NCBI GenBank assembly: GCA_963575645.1
Contig: OY754472.1
Coordinates: 33,109,401-33,173,400, forward strand
Reading direction: 5' to 3'
DNA length: 64,000 bases
Source: Xanthostigma xanthostigma
Taxonomy: Eukaryota > Arthropoda > Insecta > Raphidioptera > Raphidiidae
Shown here piece by piece: positions 18,784 to 56,549 of the stretch. The position numbers and the translations under genes were made by a program. The first letter of the stretch is position 1. Each line of letters opens with the position of its first letter. The notes under the pieces are model-generated. The model was not told the DNA's origin and ran no database searches. It saw only the letters and a program-made list of their open reading frames with translations.

Positions 18784-19014
18784 ACAAATACTTCACTGGT
18801 CAGTAGCACAATCAGGTAGCCGAAACAAATACTTCACTGGCTAGTGGCGCCATCATGTGGCCGAAACAAATACTTCACTGGCTAGTGGCTTCATCATGTG
18901 GCCGAAACAAATACTTCACTGGCTAGTGGAGCCATCAGGTGGCCGAAAATATAAGCAGTTTTAACAATAGAATGACACATACTTTAATTGCCAGTGGCGC
19001 TATCTGGTGACAGA
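18784..19014 (+). repeat. 41-bp minisatellite
   Basis: Four head-to-tail units of 41 bp (18784-18947) start ACAAATACTTCACTGGCTAG and end ATCATGTGGCCGAA. A fifth diverged unit lies at 18972-19013 after a short break. Units differ by a few substitutions, mainly in the segment GTGGCGCCATCAGGTGGC. Confidence 0.9.
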
Positions 19015-37543: not shown

Positions 37544-38370
37544 AACGGGTAACTTAACCTTGCTACTTGGCTATAAATATAGGTACTACATGTGTCAAAA
37601 ATGTAGTCACATTGATTTCAGAGTCAAGGTCACAGAAAATGAAACATCGACCTCGAAACTTCTCTTCTGTATAAATAGCGGCATTTCCGGCGCCATAAAT
37701 ATCAAGCGTATACACAATTTTTAAATAAATAACTTACAGTCGGGCCTTTTGTCCTGTCCCCGTTTGTACAACAACTACAAGGCAAGGTGTCAAGAAGGTT
37801 ATATGTATGTATGACTGTGTGTACCAACAGTGGACACAATGAGCTATCATTGCAGCGCGACCCAAAGCCTAAAGAGTTCACGGAAACGGTGAAGTAGCGG
37901 CTCTACTCTGTTGGAATTGGAGAGAACACTGTGGCATGAAAATAGACTTTATTCATTTATTCGGCGTCCTGTCACAATTGAAATATGACTGCAGAGCCCT
38001 TGGGTACCTGCGTCTCTCTACCCATTGCTCCCCACACCAGCATCGGTCTCGCTACCCATTGTTCTCCCCATCCTCACCGTCACCGATGTCCGCCGAGGCC
38101 TTTTGTCGTTCGTTTTCCCTTCGTCTAGTTAGTGTTGCTGCCGCTGAGCGGCGCCAGATACGATGCCGACAGTGGCGAATCGTTTACACAAGCAACGATC
38201 ATTGGAAATAATCAGATAAAAACGTGTATCGTTACTGAAATTGAAAAAGTTTTATTTATTACATAAAGTGCCTTTGCAAATGTTCATTTGTAATTTCAAG
38301 TTTATAATTTTTGAATCGACGTTTTAAAATATGTATTGTGTGAGTTTGAGAAGTGTGCTGGTTTTTAAAT
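37544..38370. other. GC-richer stretch at 37960-38200, no gene proven
   Basis: Around 38000-38190 the sequence is clearly GC-richer (CCGCCGAGGCC, GCTGCCGCTGAGCGGCGCC) than anything else not explained by a mobile element. A 91-codon frame (37936-38211) crosses it but has no recognised domain. It might be a 5' exon or promoter region. Confidence 0.35.
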
Positions 38371-38755
38371 AAATCTTTTTATTTAACTAAGTTCTATCTA
38401 AGTAGTTGAACGTATGTGACAGTATAGTATATCTAAGTAATTTTGAGTCGGCGTCAACAATCCTTCGCCGGAAATCTCGTAGCGTTCACGAAGTTAATGT
38501 CAGCGACAGAGCAACCCGAACGGGCACACTGAGGGCACACGTCTTTGCGAGTGGTCGTGTGGAGAGCGCATGTTTGGAATGTTAATGTTTATCGCTGGAG
38601 ATTTCACGTATCATTGTTAATTTGATTTGGTTATTTCTTTTAGTGATCTTTGTTCATTGATGGTTTGACGCCGACTCAAAATTACTTAGATATACTATAC
38701 TGTCACATACGTTCAACTACTTAGATAGAACTTAGTTAAATAAAAAGATTTATTA
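38371..38755. mobile_element. TIR element with apparently perfect 85-bp arms
   Basis: The left arm (about 38372-38458) starts AATCTTTTTATTTAACTAAG and ends TGAGTCGGCGTCAA. The right arm (about 38668-38753) is its reverse complement with no mismatch that I can see. The 210-bp centre has no coding. The target duplication is unclear in the A/T-rich flanks. Arm identity suggests recent mobility. Confidence 0.85.
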
Positions 38756-48968: not shown

Positions 48969-48972
48969 TTAA

Positions 48973-49391
48973 GAGTATTCGTCCCTGCAAGTACCCCCTG
49001 CACCCTTCATCTCAATTCTTTACCCCTCGCCTAAAAACGGTTCGCGCTCTCCCGACGCTATTTTTAAAGCTAGAGGGTTCTGGTAAACGCCAAATGAAAG
49101 ACAAAGAATCAGACTACAGATCCTTCAAGCGAATTTTTTGAAAAAAAATCCTGAAAAAACTTACAACCTTTTGAAAAAAATAATAAGTTACGTAATATTT
49201 CACACGTAGGCGAAACTGTTTTTCAAAAAATTCGCCTGAAGGATCTGTAGTCTGATTCTTTGTATTTCATTTGGCGTTTACCAGAACCCTCTAGCTTTAA
49301 AAATAGCGTCGGGAGAGCGCGAACCGCTTTTAGGCGAGGGGAGAAGAATTGAGATGAAGGGTGCAGGGGGTATTTGCAGGGACAAATACTC
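48973..49391. mobile_element. TTAA-flanked hairpin element, about 173-bp arms
   Basis: TTAA at 48969-48972 and 49392-49395. The tips are GAGTATTCGTCCCTGCAAGT and, inverted, GAGTATTTGTCCCTGCAAAT. The arms stay nearly identical through AAAACGGTTCGCGCTCTCCC, GAGGGTTCTGGTAAACGCC and ATCAGACTACAGATCCTTC. The loop is about 75 bp. TTAA duplication is used by piggyBac and Kolobok; the tips do not settle which. Confidence 0.88.
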
Positions 49392-49525
49392 TTAATGTAT
49401 GTTTAAGGGGGAAGTACAGTATAGAATCGAAAAAAAAATCGATTTTCTTTTTATTGGTTCCTATCCGGACAAAATGCGGGCACTCCAAGAGCTGTATTCA
49501 AAATATTCCCGCCACTACAGACATT

Positions 49526-51785
49526 TCGTCGTTAACAAAACGAACAGACGTAACTCCAAATTTAACATTTTTCAGTATAACGTTTTAAAGTTTTTTATGT
49601 TTTATTGTTAAACGCCACTGAGCTATTTATTGAGTTATCAATCTCAAATAAACGACACAGTGTAGTTTATATTATAAGGTTCAGGAACCAGTGATTGTGT
49701 GTAGTAAAAATTGAACACACAGGGGTGATATACACCCCTAAAGCACATACGCCCTTTCGTCTTTTTACTATATGCAACTTCGCATGTCCAGACCTTTAAT
49801 TACGCCACTGATAACTGCGCTTTAAATGTCGCGAATGAGCTGAAAATAGGTTAAAATAATAAAATAAAACACGTAACAAGTAAAGTCAATAGTTTAATGC
49901 GAGTAAATATCAATTTTTTTGTAAACAATATTACGTAAATAAATATTAATGAGGTAAGTTTTCATAAAATTGCACATGCTCTGATAATTGTATTACAGGG
50001 GTTGGTCCTTGGCAAAGTGACATTAGGTCCTTGAACTTTTCTATAGAAATTGTAGTACTAGTATTTAGAATAGGTGGATCGCTGTTTGGAGTTACTGACG
50101 ATCTCGTATTCATAGTAATGCTGCGGTACTGGTTTGTCAGATGGCTTTCAGTGAAATATAATTGTTCAAAGTATTAGTAACCATAATTTCTTTAACATTT
50201 TTCCAGTCAATTCCAGTATCTCCTAAATCGTCTTTCCTAATCGCTAATATTCGTAAATCACGTGCAAGAGTTTTAAAATGAAGGAAATTTTGAGAATTAA
50301 GGCAATTGACAATATACGAATAATCTTCTTGAGTGCTAAATGGATAATTGAAACCAACTGTGAAGGCACGAAAATGTCCCCTGATTTTTCTATTGCAGTA
50401 CTGATTGTACTATGCACAGAATCACCTTTATTCTGTCCATGATGAGCTTCAAAAAACGACAAGGTAATAGATTTAATATTTTTCGATGTGGAAATAATAT
50501 GCAGCAACATGGCGGCAACGATTGAATTTTTATTTTGCCCGCTGCACCCATCGGAAAATAAATGTACAGTGTGAACTCCATCTAGGTCAAGTTTTTTAAG
50601 ATACATACTAAGACAAGTTGAGATTTCACAAGAACCCCGTTTGCTGAGTCCTTCATGCCAAAAATAGCATTGACATTGCTTTGATTGTAGGTTGTAAATC
50701 ATAAAATTGTAATTAGCGAGTCTACGACTGTAGAAAATCTGGCTATGTTCTTTCTCACAACCGTCAACGATATATTTCTCTGGAGTTGGTGTTATTACTA
50801 TTAAATTGTGATTATATTCGCAAGGTCCCATTTGACCGAAATGCTCCCAGCATAGCAAGCATAAACAACGAACACATCTTCTCTCTGACAATTTCCAGCT
50901 TGACAACGATCACCATAGGTAGGATTCTTGTCTACATCATCAAACTCGGACAAATAAATATCATCGTCTTCTGCAGTATTCTCCATTTCTTGGTGTCTAT
51001 TTTTATCATCATGAGGATAATTAGTTATTGTATCGGAAACTATTCTCTTTTCAATAAGAATCGCCTGTTTCAAAATCTCGAGAGGTGTATCATCATCATC
51101 ATCCTCAGTGTCGAAAATTGTATTAACTGTTTCATCTTCAACTTGCAGAACAGTTCCAAAATACCATTTTTTGTCTGGTTTCCAGTACATTTTAATTTGC
51201 ACCCCTACGTCAATTTTTTCTGGTTTTATAACGGCTTCCATGTCTGATTGGGAAACTACATTCTTCGTCCCATCATCCCAAAGCACGAGGACGTCCATTA
51301 TTACGGCAAACACACTATTCGACTTTGCAAAATAGAAAACGCAATATTAGAAATAAAAAACAGCGATAATTATTAATCAAAATGCGCTACAAGAATTCAT
51401 TCTTAGCCTCATTATTCCAATGGATGAGTAAGTTCATCAACATGGCACACTATATTTTGAATTTATAAAGTAGAAAACGCAATATTAAGTAAAAGAAAAC
51501 ACTTACCGGTAATTATTCAGGAGGGCGTATCTCACAACAACTCACAATAAGTACTCACTATAATAAAACGAATGGCCGTAAGTCAAGTTACGCCGGTACG
51601 TCGTTTTTCAAGTTAACACTAAACTAAGATGTGCCCGTGCAACGATTTCTATAAAGTAGGTTTCTAGGTGCAGAAGAGCTACGCCACTTCGTCATATCAT
51701 AGATTTGATATACGCGAATTTCGTGATAGGCTTAACTCAAAACCGCCAATTTTCGAGTTACGCCTGTTCGTATTGTTAGCGACGA
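49526..51785 (-). mobile_element. Inner inverted-repeat pair around the coding relic
   Basis: TCGTCGTTAACAAAACGAAC, then AGACGTAACTC at 49526-49556, is mirrored at 51753-51785 (GAGTTACGCCTGTTCGTATT, then GTTAGCGACGA). Flanks give no certain target duplication. It encloses the pseudogene with about 600 bp downstream and 470 bp upstream of it. Confidence 0.55.
50137..51313 (-). pseudogene. Tudor/chromo-like plus DUF7869-like transposon protein, frame-shifted
   Basis: Three successive minus-strand segments in different frames look like one protein. First (51313-50801): a likely start at 51298, then MDVLVLWDDGTKNVV, DVGVQIKMYWKPDKKWYFGT, a small-barrel (Tudor/chromo-like) domain, and an acidic stretch. 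Second (50906-50244): cysteine-rich CVRCLCLLCWEHF, then HLFSDGCSGQNKN (residues 115-127) and FFEAHHGQNKGDSVHS (151-166). The SDxCxGQNxN and GxNxGDxxHS signatures occur in a large family of uncharacterised arthropod proteins (DUF7869-like, from memory) that I take to be transposon-derived. Third: after a shift near 50350 a further open stretch of about 70 codons, including SYIVNCLN and GIDWKNVKEIM, runs to a TGA at 50137-50139. At least two shifts make it a pseudogene, unless introns explain them; I see no convincing splice sites. Confidence 0.65.
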
Positions 51786-54015: not shown

Positions 54016-54720
54016 TGTCGAAACACCTTTATACTTTTAATTAAAAAAAAAAAAAAAAAAAACAAAAAAAAAACATTTTTATTCTAAAGCGTGCACTTAA
54101 TAAATTAAAAATAGTTACAGTATTTCTCTGTAAGCCCATAAATCTCTCGGACAGCTCAAAATGAATGTTTTTCAAAGAGGAGCGTAAAATTTAAATGAAC
54201 CAAATTCCAGACGCATTTTAGATTTGAACTTTTAATTAGACGCCTACTTCTATGGTACTATTCTGAATGGTCAATGTAAGAATTTACAGTAATGTTAATT
54301 TTTTGTCACTTTTTAACAAATTTAACATCACATACGTTAAAGTAAGACAGAAACTTAACAATATTGTTAATTTTAACAATGACCATTCAGAATAACACCA
54401 TTACTTTTAATAAAAGCATTATTTCCACAATAAATAATTTCCATAAGCCATTTCAATGGTTGCCAACGTGAAAATAATTAACCAATGTTGAATAAAATAT
54501 TTATAAGAGGTTTGTAAATAAAATAGACTACACAGTTAGATTTTTAAAACCCGAACACATTTTTTTTCGTTGAGGAAGGGTTTTCGAAAAAAGTTTCGGA
54601 CAAAATCTGCAGGGAATCAAGGGGGAAAAACATGTATGTATTTTTTTTTTCATTTGGTGAAGATACTTTCGAGATATCAAGATCATCTTCACTTTTTTAA
54701 ATAGGAGAATACAAATTCAA
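54016..54720. other. No gene recognised; A-rich run at 54043-54075
   Basis: A nearly pure A tract of about 33 bp, then AT-rich sequence. ATGGTACTATTCTGAATGGT (54252) and its approximate mirror CCATTCAGAATAACACCATT (54384) bracket a weak inverted repeat. Confidence 0.5.
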
Positions 54721-54729
54721 TAAATCGAA

Positions 54730-54757
54730 GAATCTCGCAAGAGATTCTTTTCTGTGC
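54730..54757 (+). repeat. Isolated hairpin plus TTCTGTGC module
   Basis: GAATCTC-GCAA-GAGATTC is a perfect 7-bp stem with a four-base loop, followed by TTTTCTGTGC. The same plan, stem-loop then TTCTGTGC, recurs three times in the palindrome at 55943-56503. Confidence 0.6.
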
Positions 54758-54940
54758 TAAATGCCAACAAATCTCTAGCGTATTCTTATACATTGATTTT
54801 GCCTTTCTCCCATATAACGCCGTGTATATGAAGCAAGTTTCCAAGTTTTATAGTTCTGTGACCACGTGACTTTCATAGGACCGATTTTTCGTATCACCCA
54901 TATATACTTCTGTACCACAATAACAGCTTATATTGTGAGA

Positions 54941-55160
54941 GTGCGCGTGGACGAGCGGTTACGACGTTAGGCTAGTAATAACTATAATAACAGGGTCTTG
55001 AGTTCGAATCCCGCCAGCATCATTGGAAAATTTTTTTTTCAATTTTTAATTTATGTTTTTAATTGTTTTTTTAGTTTTAATTTATTTTCTCAATTTTTTT
55101 CTCATATATTTTTATTTCTTTTTTAATTTTTAATTTTTATTTTCTTGTTTTTTGAAAAAT
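54941..55160 (+). mobile_element. SINE-like family S1: type II tRNA head and T-rich body
   Basis: The head (54941-55016) has GTGGACGAGCGGTTACGACG, anticodon-region GCTAGTAATA and GAGTTCGAATCCCGCCAGC. It is followed by CATCATTGGAAAA and a long T-rich body. The unit at 59893-59965 (minus) has the same AGT-bearing loop and the same CATCATTGGAAAA junction, so they form one family. Stems pair poorly; not a working tRNA. Confidence 0.65.
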
Positions 55161-55648
55161 TCACTTTCGTCAAATCTTTTATTAAAAAATAACAAAATAT
55201 ATGATTAAAGTTAGATTTAAATAAATTAATTTATTAAAAAACATATTTATCATAAAAAGTGCAACAAAAATTAAAAAGTGAAAAGATTACGAAGTGAAAC
55301 TTCTTTTTTTAATGCAAAATAAGTATTTTACAAATGATATGAAAAAAATTTGTATTTTTAATGGTGGGCCTTGTTCATTGATTTTTTTTCATGCCTTCAA
55401 AATGTGCCTTCATGGAATCTTCAAGAATATCCATATTTCAAATGAATATAAAAAAGAATCATGTATCACAGAGCATAGACTTGTTATAGCTCATTTTTAT
55501 TTTTTATAGACTTCACATGGATTGTTGACAAATTGAATGTCATGGTATTCGCATGGAGGTGTGATGAGCCGATTGCACCAGTAGGTGTTGCACCGCGGCA
55601 GCACTGGACTACGCGGCAAAATATAAATGCACTTTTGTAGTACTGTTT
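55161..55648. other. No gene recognised
   Basis: AT-rich; a 71-codon frame at 55294-55509 is unsupported. Confidence 0.45.
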
Positions 55649-55732
55649 GTTAAATGAGAAGTAAAAATCAAAAGTCGATTATTGCAATTTCTATAACCGA
55701 CTTTTGATTGTTACTTCTTATTTAACAAAATA
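55649..55732. repeat. Short hairpin, about 32-bp arms
   Basis: GTTAAATGAGAAGTAAAAAT, CAAAAGTCG is mirrored by CGACTTTTGATTGTTACTTC, TTATTTAAC around a 20-bp loop. Confidence 0.85.
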
Positions 55733-55815
55733 CATGAGAGACGCGCTCGAAACCACAGTTGCATGGAGTAAGGATCGTGTTGTTTTTTACAATACATATT
55801 CTAATTTCGGAGATT

Positions 55816-55880
55816 CATTGCATTTAAATACAACAATATGAACACTTTTATTGCATTTAAATACAACAATATAAAAAATG
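55816..55880 (+). repeat. Tandem 35-bp duplication
   Basis: TGCATTTAAATACAACAATA occurs twice, 35 bp apart, just left of the large palindrome. Confidence 0.85.
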
Positions 55881-55942
55881 CACATATGTTTATTTTGGAG
55901 GAAAAATAAAAATAATGTCTCACACTTTGGAAAAAGACGTGA

Positions 55943-56503
55943 AATCTTAAAAAAAAAACTTCGGAGAAGTAAAAACTTCGTTCTGTGCTAAATTCAAAAA
56001 CTTGAGGCGACTGAATCTTAAGATTATAACTTAAAAAAAAAGAATTTCGAGGCAGACAAGAAATTGAAATCAAGCTCGAAATTCTGTGCGTAAGACGTCG
56101 AAAAAAAATGAATTTCGAGGCAGACAAGGAATTGAAATCCAACCTTGAAATTCTGTGCTTATAAAAGCTACAAGAGCAACAGCAAAAAAAAGTGCACAGA
56201 CGGCGTTTTTTTAGTGGTAACTAAAGGAGTTATGCGAACACCGTCTTTGCATTTTTTTTTTGCTGTTGCTCTTGTAGCTTTTATAAGCACAGAATTTCAA
56301 GGTTGGATTTCAATTCCTTGTCTGCCTCGAAATTCATTTTTTTTCGACGTCTTACGCACAGAATTTCGAGCTTGATTTCAATTTCTTGTCTGCCTCGAAA
56401 TTCTTTTTTTTTAAGTTATAATCTTAAGATTCAGTCGCCTCAAGTTTTTGAATTTAGCACAGAACGAAGTTTTTACTTCTCCGAAGTTTTTTTTTTAAGA
56501 TTT
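55943..56503. repeat. Large near-perfect palindrome, about 250-bp arms
   Basis: The left arm 55943-56191 and right arm 56252-56503 are reverse complements with no mismatch that I can see over about 235 bp. The stem continues less perfectly into the loop (GACGGCG / CACCGTC). Each arm carries three modules ending in TTCTGTGC (55981-55988, 56082-56089, 56151-56158 on the left), two of them about 69 bp apart and starting GAATTTCGAGGCAGACAAG. Mirrored open frames are a symmetry artefact. Confidence 0.95.
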
Positions 56504-56549
56504 TATATACATACTTATTATAAAGTATAGTACCAAAAGGAAGCCCGTT

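Follow-up and report, generated by a model that had tools for sequence, protein, structure and literature searches.

The question raised by this locus of Xanthostigma xanthostigma (Raphidioptera: Raphidiidae) is what a near-perfect palindrome built from repeated modules represents: a local accident of the chromosome, a source of RNA or part of a mobile element. The window, by which we mean the whole stretch of 64,000 nucleotides that was analysed, has a G+C content of 33%, contains no N and belongs to a genome of 623 Mb in 28 contigs. A sequence-only reading had described two identical arms of about 250 bp, and this description is accurate, since the arms measure 250 nt each, are 100% complementary across a 62-nt spacer and lie between flanks without likeness, with nothing beyond 4-mer coincidences at the edges of the palindrome. 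A GCACAGA motif sits at the base of the imperfect hairpin formed by the spacer and, reading outward from the palindrome centre, a unit plan of GCACAGA, hairpin and T run occurs once in the spacer and three times in each arm. A 139-aa open reading frame that crosses the palindrome has no Pfam match.

Whole-genome searches place this structure in a wider setting. Querying the genome with the palindrome returned 837 candidates and 40 scored places (counted on both strands, 80 rows), which on the better strand are 99-100% identical to the query over 554-562 of its 562 bp. A query with the sequence to the left, here termed the body, returned 1510 candidates and 40 scored places at 95-100% identity. 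The loci of the element fall into three sets, selected for similarity to the palindrome (L001-L030), for similarity to the body (L031-L050) or for an exact 18-bp string of the 3' end on contig C1 (L053-L067). In all 20 loci fetched from the 40 body-query places the spacer is present, together with both arms in full or in part, and an element form without the palindrome, as expected of an ancestral state, was seen at none of the loci fetched. The 18-bp string, which a full copy holds twice, is found at 1304 places in the genome (671 and 633 on the two strands), the reversed control being found at none. Among the places listed, the first 100 lie without exception on C1 and comprise 41 face-to-face pairs (36 spaced at 468-487 bp, five at 241-411 bp) and 18 unpaired occurrences, so that, by extrapolation and if C1 is typical, the 1304 places correspond to roughly 770 elements. 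Fifteen small stretches were read, covering 11 of the 18 unpaired occurrences and four of the five short-spaced pairs; 14 hold the same end, with an arm mutated or partly deleted or with units lost, and L060, with only 81 bp, does not allow a judgement. The element is present in many hundreds of similar copies and, instead of the single palindrome and stray module first described, the locus contains the 3' part of such a copy. Exact pattern searches gave no match in IMG/VR or GTDB contigs, collections in which an animal transposon is not expected. In L031 two copies of the element stand head to tail, the first ending in the distal arm just before the next TCGAAG, which resembles the tandem Helitrons with 3'-truncated inner copies described in the available part of one report (PMC7492417).

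The limits of the element were set by aligning nine palindrome-matched loci to the window and by locus ends, empty sites and 3' tails (Table 1). Likeness extends to the left as far as position 54724 or thereabouts in eight of the nine, stopping at 55448 in L004, and on the right it ends at the edge of the palindrome, which thus makes up the 3' third of the element. The insertion is read between a host A (54724) and a host T (56501), the exact cut being ambiguous because AT is common to both. In the distal arm, the unit farthest from the centre is the true 3' end, and the proximal arm is its mirror image. By alignment bounds the copy in the window is short, at 1763 bp, 39 of the 45 measured copies spanning 1820-1913 bp; the copy alignment took 42 of 50 loci, since five have no exact anchor at a terminus and another three, namely L025, L039 and L045, lie outside the length limits. 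These three larger copies contain no long open frame (longest 159 aa). Strings in the body that we take to be A-box-like and B-box-like drew attention to a possible tRNA, a candidate that was rejected because neither ARAGORN nor Rfam gave a match there. A quasi-palindrome (55646-55729, 88% complementary) also lies inside the body and recurs in copies, and at L059 a tip-deleted copy of the palindrome adjoins what is presumably a tRNA-derived SINE.

Table 1. Features of the palindrome-bearing element and its insertion site in the window
Feature	Position	Strand	Remarks
Whole element, 1776 bp	54725..56500	+	Nine other loci aligned to window, locus ends, empty sites, 3' tails
5' hairpin, 9-bp stem, 4-nt loop GCAA	54728..54749	+	DNA fold -7.9 kcal/mol, z -3.4, equalled by 1 of 200 shuffles
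5' subterminal inverted repeat TTCTGTGCTAAAT	54750..54762	+	Read in sequence; exact reverse complement at 56452-56464
tRNA-like stretch of body, weak	54938..55025	+	Read in sequence
AT-rich repetitive stretch of body	55029..55160	+	
Proximal arm	55942..56191	+	Inverted copy of the element's 3' end; three TTCTGTGC modules
Extra copy of 13-bp repeat inside proximal arm	55981..55993	+	
Spacer	56192..56253	+	Own imperfect hairpin; orientation against body reversed in 1 of 50 loci (L032)
Distal arm	56254..56503	+	GCACAG, hairpin and T run, three times; 3' end of element; final 3 nt taken as host
3' subterminal inverted repeat, TTCTGTGCTAAAT on minus strand	56452..56464	-	
3' hairpin, 5-bp stem, 21 nt from 3' end, weak alone	56466..56479	+	DNA fold -3.6 kcal/mol, z -1.0, equalled by 32 of 200 shuffles
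3' tail, T10 then AAGA	56487..56500	+	
Host TATAC just past 3' end, target preference	56506..56510	+	Read in sequence

The repeated modules acquire a different meaning within these limits. Their shared sequence, TTCTGTGC, is found at 55981, 56082 and 56151 on the plus strand, at 56287, 56356 and 56457 on the minus strand, and also at 54750; it occurs at 10 places in the window against 1.37 expected (100 shuffles). When a single arm is counted, three occurrences (54750, 56082 and 56151) lie behind a stem of at least 7 bp, and a shuffle comparison bears out the association, with a mean of 0.05 and a maximum of 1 in 300 dinucleotide shuffles. Modules 2 and 3 are, however, a tandem duplicate with 90% identity, so that the stems are not three independent ones, fewer events underlie the excess than is apparent, and the description of the stem-loops as otherwise different does not hold for all of them. 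Their hairpins are the stronger ones (RNA fold z -3.0 and -2.3), and that of module 1 is weak (z -1.4, equalled by 27 of 200 shuffles) and fails the 7-bp test. The fourth module, described as isolated near 54730, does possess a hairpin with a GCAA loop, although its stem is of 9 bp rather than 7 and it is not isolated, being the 5' end of the element. TTCTGTGC forms the core of TTCTGTGCTAAAT, a subterminal inverted repeat of 13 bp, and the idea that the shared tail points to a recognition or processing signal is borne out and fits a transposon that has a subterminal inverted repeat and a hairpin at both ends.

The ends of the element and its choice of target are equally uniform. Copies begin with TCGAAG, preceded by an A in 46 of 47, and the 3' ends of the 47 scored copies follow one plan, in which ATTTAGCACAGAACGAAG leads to a short hairpin, a run of 6-12 T and a short tail that reads AAGA (32), AA (8), A (3), AAG (2), AAA (1) or AAC (1). 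The host T that comes after the tail is fixed by the way in which tails were parsed and is not in itself evidence. In 35 of the 47 ends, on the other hand, TATAC starts 5-14 nt downstream of the T run, against 3.9% of background 20-nt stretches, and in 31 of 46 it lies 4-6 nt after the host T; on the left flank nothing similar is seen apart from the A. Comparison with empty host repeats gave an exactly contiguous site with a single AT at the junction in nine of 23 cases, which represent six different insertions (L008, L009, L017, L033, L046 and L049). In the other 14 comparisons, which involve AT-rich repeats, the junction is shifted by -8 to +15 nt, presumably through indels in those repeats. 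Across the 23 comparisons no clear target duplication longer than a possible 2-bp AT was seen. Duplication of AT and insertion between A and T are indistinguishable in most copies, although the AAG-before-T tails of two of the 47 (L002 and L031) are a poor simple fit to a 2-bp AT duplication.

Taken together, these features make it probable that the element, in a class assignment drawn from structure alone, is a non-autonomous, non-coding rolling-circle transposon of the Helitron2/HINE type that has been recently active and whose 3' terminator has been multiplied and then mirrored. HINEs, which with DINE-1 are non-autonomous Helentrons, have been described with subterminal inverted repeats 12-15 bp long, a palindrome at the 3' end and an unchanged target (Thomas et al. 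2014, PMC4067079). To judge from the part of that report available, the element shares with HINE and DINE-1 the subterminal repeats of that length, a short 3' palindrome (a weak one here, and situated in HINE 8-35 bp before the end), an apparent lack of target change, a ragged T-rich end and the abundance of non-coding copies (PMC4067079). The distance from the 3' repeat to the end is 36 nt here and 38-60 nt in mite HINEs, and the 5' repeat begins 25 nt in, behind a separate hairpin, instead of the 2-4 nt of mite HINEs; in DINE-1 a distinct short inverted repeat is found at a distance of 3-22 bp from the 5' repeat (PMC4067079). The target differs as well, being A|T before TATAC rather than the TT or T-rich target of HINE, and a palindrome with 250-bp arms is not among the HINE or DINE-1 features described in the portion of the report available (PMC4067079).

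Similar points of agreement and disagreement arise with other Helitron groups, again as portrayed in the accessible parts of the reports cited. Helitron2 was defined by hairpins at both ends and asymmetric inverted repeats (Bao and Jurka 2013, PMC3627910), and its fungal representatives FoHeli1 and FoHeli2 start with TC and have been proposed to insert into themselves, giving rise to multiple termini (PMC5148889). The element resembles them in its hairpin at each end, its short asymmetric inverted repeats, the 3' repeat just before the 3' hairpin and a T or TC start (PMC3627910, PMC5148889), and resembles FoHeli in its AT-type insertion (PMC5148889). The position of its 3' hairpin, just past the 3' repeat, fits both Helitron2 and HINE, but the 5-bp stem is weak. 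The 5' repeat of Helitron2, however, lies 0-4 nt from the 5' end and within the 5' hairpin, and not outside it as here (PMC3627910), and Helitron2 and FoHeli1/2 end in ATTTT without the multiplied and mirrored terminator of the element, which closes with a T run and AAGA (PMC3627910, PMC5148889). The experimentally studied Helraiser, a canonical Helitron, uses its 3' hairpin as a terminator and inserts between A and T, with AT-richness peaking on the 3' flank (PMC4778049). The element agrees with it in the TC start, the A|T insertion, the AT-rich preference that is strongest 3' and the 3' hairpin, and departs from it in lacking a CTRR 3' end and in possessing subterminal inverted repeats and a 5' hairpin (PMC4778049).

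The AT target, the T run with AAGA and the 5' arrangement, in which the hairpin precedes the repeat, are an exact match to none of the HINE, Helitron2 and Helraiser groups. Outside these groups, two further systems invite comparison. Foldback elements have long inverted-repeat arms made of repeated modules, and the palindrome is similarly constructed but, unlike them, stands at one end only of a longer element that shows no clear target duplication. Parvovirus-type ends consist of a long imperfect terminal palindrome that occurs in flip and flop forms; the element has in common with them a long terminal palindrome, a proposed single-stranded intermediate and an occasional inversion of the spacer, although the flip is seen in only one of 50 loci and no relationship is claimed. 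In the limited body of open-access literature examined, no Helitron-type element with a palindromic end this long was found. The kind of element is known, and what is new here is a long, mirrored and co-varying terminator, together with a sharp preference for the TATAC side.

The explanation that best survives alongside this assignment, and which we judge unlikely though deserving of attention, is that the element is non-autonomous but belongs to another class, being a DDE or tyrosine/serine-recombinase transposon for which AT is a 2-bp duplication or core. It would account for the AT, which most copies show at each junction and empty sites only once. The ragged 3' tails, with five forms besides AAGA among the 47 ends, do not sit easily with it, nor do the hairpin near each end, the one-sided target motif and the position of the inverted repeats, which are subterminal and do not show the terminal placement and, apart from a possible AT, the fixed-length duplication of MITE or foldback (DDE) elements. 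From the ragged tail and the one-sided motif we infer that single-strand rolling-circle transposition fits the element better than a DDE transposase.

The search for a coding partner bears on the same choice. Helitron_like_N (PF14214) is matched at 89 places in the genome; open frames of 1,547-1,575 aa account for 32 of these matches, and frames of 1,874-2,509 aa for another eight. The presence of many intact frames of Helitron type counts in favour of the rolling-circle reading. Six of the loci with such matches, drawn from different size or score groups (L051, L052 and L068-L071), contain no TTCTGTGC in either orientation over the coding frames and the flanks covered, 189-1231 nt upstream and 956-2086 nt downstream, and their likeness to the element is at chance level. 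That no rolling-circle partner was found in them speaks for an element of another class; the flanks covered are short, however, and may leave some true ends of the Helitron_like_N loci outside. Where C1 is covered by the listing, it has seven Helitron_like_N genes, the closest of them 32 kb from a listed 3' end of the element. As separate observations, the 32 frames of 1,547-1,575 aa (L051 being an example) have closely similar scores genome-wide and are probably a recently active canonical Helitron family, and the 2,509-aa frame of L071 has GCACAGA seven times at an exact spacing of 63 nt (1569-1947), an in-frame tandem repeat.

Far less probable than a transposon of another class is an endogenous hairpin-RNA (siRNA) locus, the transcripts of which would be diced into small RNAs. 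Such loci are known in Drosophila, at least from the source material available, and the predicted RNA fold of the palindrome is very stable (-451.9 kcal/mol, z -52). The many hundreds of dispersed copies with transposon ends nevertheless explain the structure without an RNA role, and mir-like and MALAT1 matches in Rfam over the palindrome were rejected with scores under the gathering thresholds. That fold-back synthesis produced a single inverted duplication here and nowhere else, although suggested by perfect arms around an imperfect central hairpin, is rejected as extremely improbable because the whole-genome search finds the same palindrome at many places on many contigs, but fold-back synthesis may have been the origin of the ancestral copy. 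Perfect palindromes are also a familiar class of assembly or read artefact, and the sequence-only reading had called for this to be checked; it is a vanishingly small concern here, given that the ends are common to the copies, their flanks differ (a few loci share a host repeat) and some have mutations or deletions of their own.

To return to the rolling-circle transposon that we favour, the two arms of a copy vary in concert. Of the 50 loci, 46 retain both arms at nearly full length (L031, L039, L040 and L043 being dropped); in these copies nine substitutions relative to the window are mirrored in both arms and 20 are confined to one, and for 38 substitutions independent arms would be expected to yield 0.011 mirror pairs, never more than two in 100,000 simulations. 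Arm statistics were computed for 48 of 67 loci, leaving out the same four, L051-L052 and 13 of the 15 small stretches. Among the 16 usable copies of L031-L050 the arms differ by 0.33% within a copy and 0.82% between copies; adding the more diverged L053 (10 mirror-shared changes, one unshared) and L058 (eight shared, two unshared) gives 0.37% within and 1.62% between, with 27 mirror-shared substitutions against 15 in one arm. The youngest group, L001-L030, which was chosen by palindrome likeness, shows 0.12% both within and between copies and is for that reason uninformative. Some of the mirror-shared changes have been inherited from a source copy, as indicated by L047 and L049, nearest neighbours by body sequence that carry the same two-arm change. 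Private variants in L031-L050 are similarly frequent in body and arms (0.0026-0.0043 per site), and there are none in the 47 bp of the 5' end. The earlier suggestion that the identity of the arms reflects recent formation or gene conversion is right in that such identity accompanies recent amplification and copying between arms. A common flip/flop of the spacer was considered and rejected, since apart from the single flipped locus none of eight further stretches with adjoining body and spacer (one with a partial spacer) is flipped.

It seems reasonable to postulate that the element would be moved in trans by a Rep-helicase, with the module of GCACAG, hairpin and T run acting as its 3' terminator. 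The 3' end may have been enlarged by tandem duplication of terminators, followed by their mirroring through fold-back copying around the spacer hairpin or, alternatively, through self-insertion in the opposite orientation. In a single-stranded intermediate the two 250-nt arms would pair, and repair or copying within the resulting hairpin could keep them alike, occasionally inverting the spacer or deleting the tip. Template switching between inverted repeats, according to the part of a report available (PMC8604942), also homogenises arms and inverts spacers, so that an ordinary chromosomal mechanism may also account for the likeness. More speculatively, and with considerable doubt, the 3' terminator might have become a long palindrome that is copied from arm to arm in each round of transposition, leaving identical arms at insertion and a loop that can flip, which would make the element a eukaryotic single-stranded-DNA transposon with a hairpin-telomere-like end.

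Whichever mechanism applies, hundreds of copies of different ages offer a means of testing whether arms are homogenised during transposition or later in the chromosome, and the stacked terminators allow us to ask whether the stop point of rolling-circle copying changes. The sharp one-sided motif, A|T and then TATAC, would make target choice directly testable. Should the copies be transcribed, their 250-bp hairpins, scattered in many hundreds over the genome, would supply double-stranded RNA in large amounts.

The window contains several other features. A second long inverted repeat (48969-49395) has 177-nt arms that are 96% complementary and 73 nt apart, and it is partly like a flank of L005. 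Perfectly complementary arms of 90 nt, 207 nt apart, lie at 38368-38754 and have no relation to the palindrome element, and a further quasi-palindrome, 79% complementary, occupies 54252-54401. Two overlapping open frames are located on the minus strand at 50244-51346, the first of which matches DUF7869 (PF25273, E 1.8e-07), and a 41-bp tandem repeat is present four times at 18784-18948 with 89% matches.
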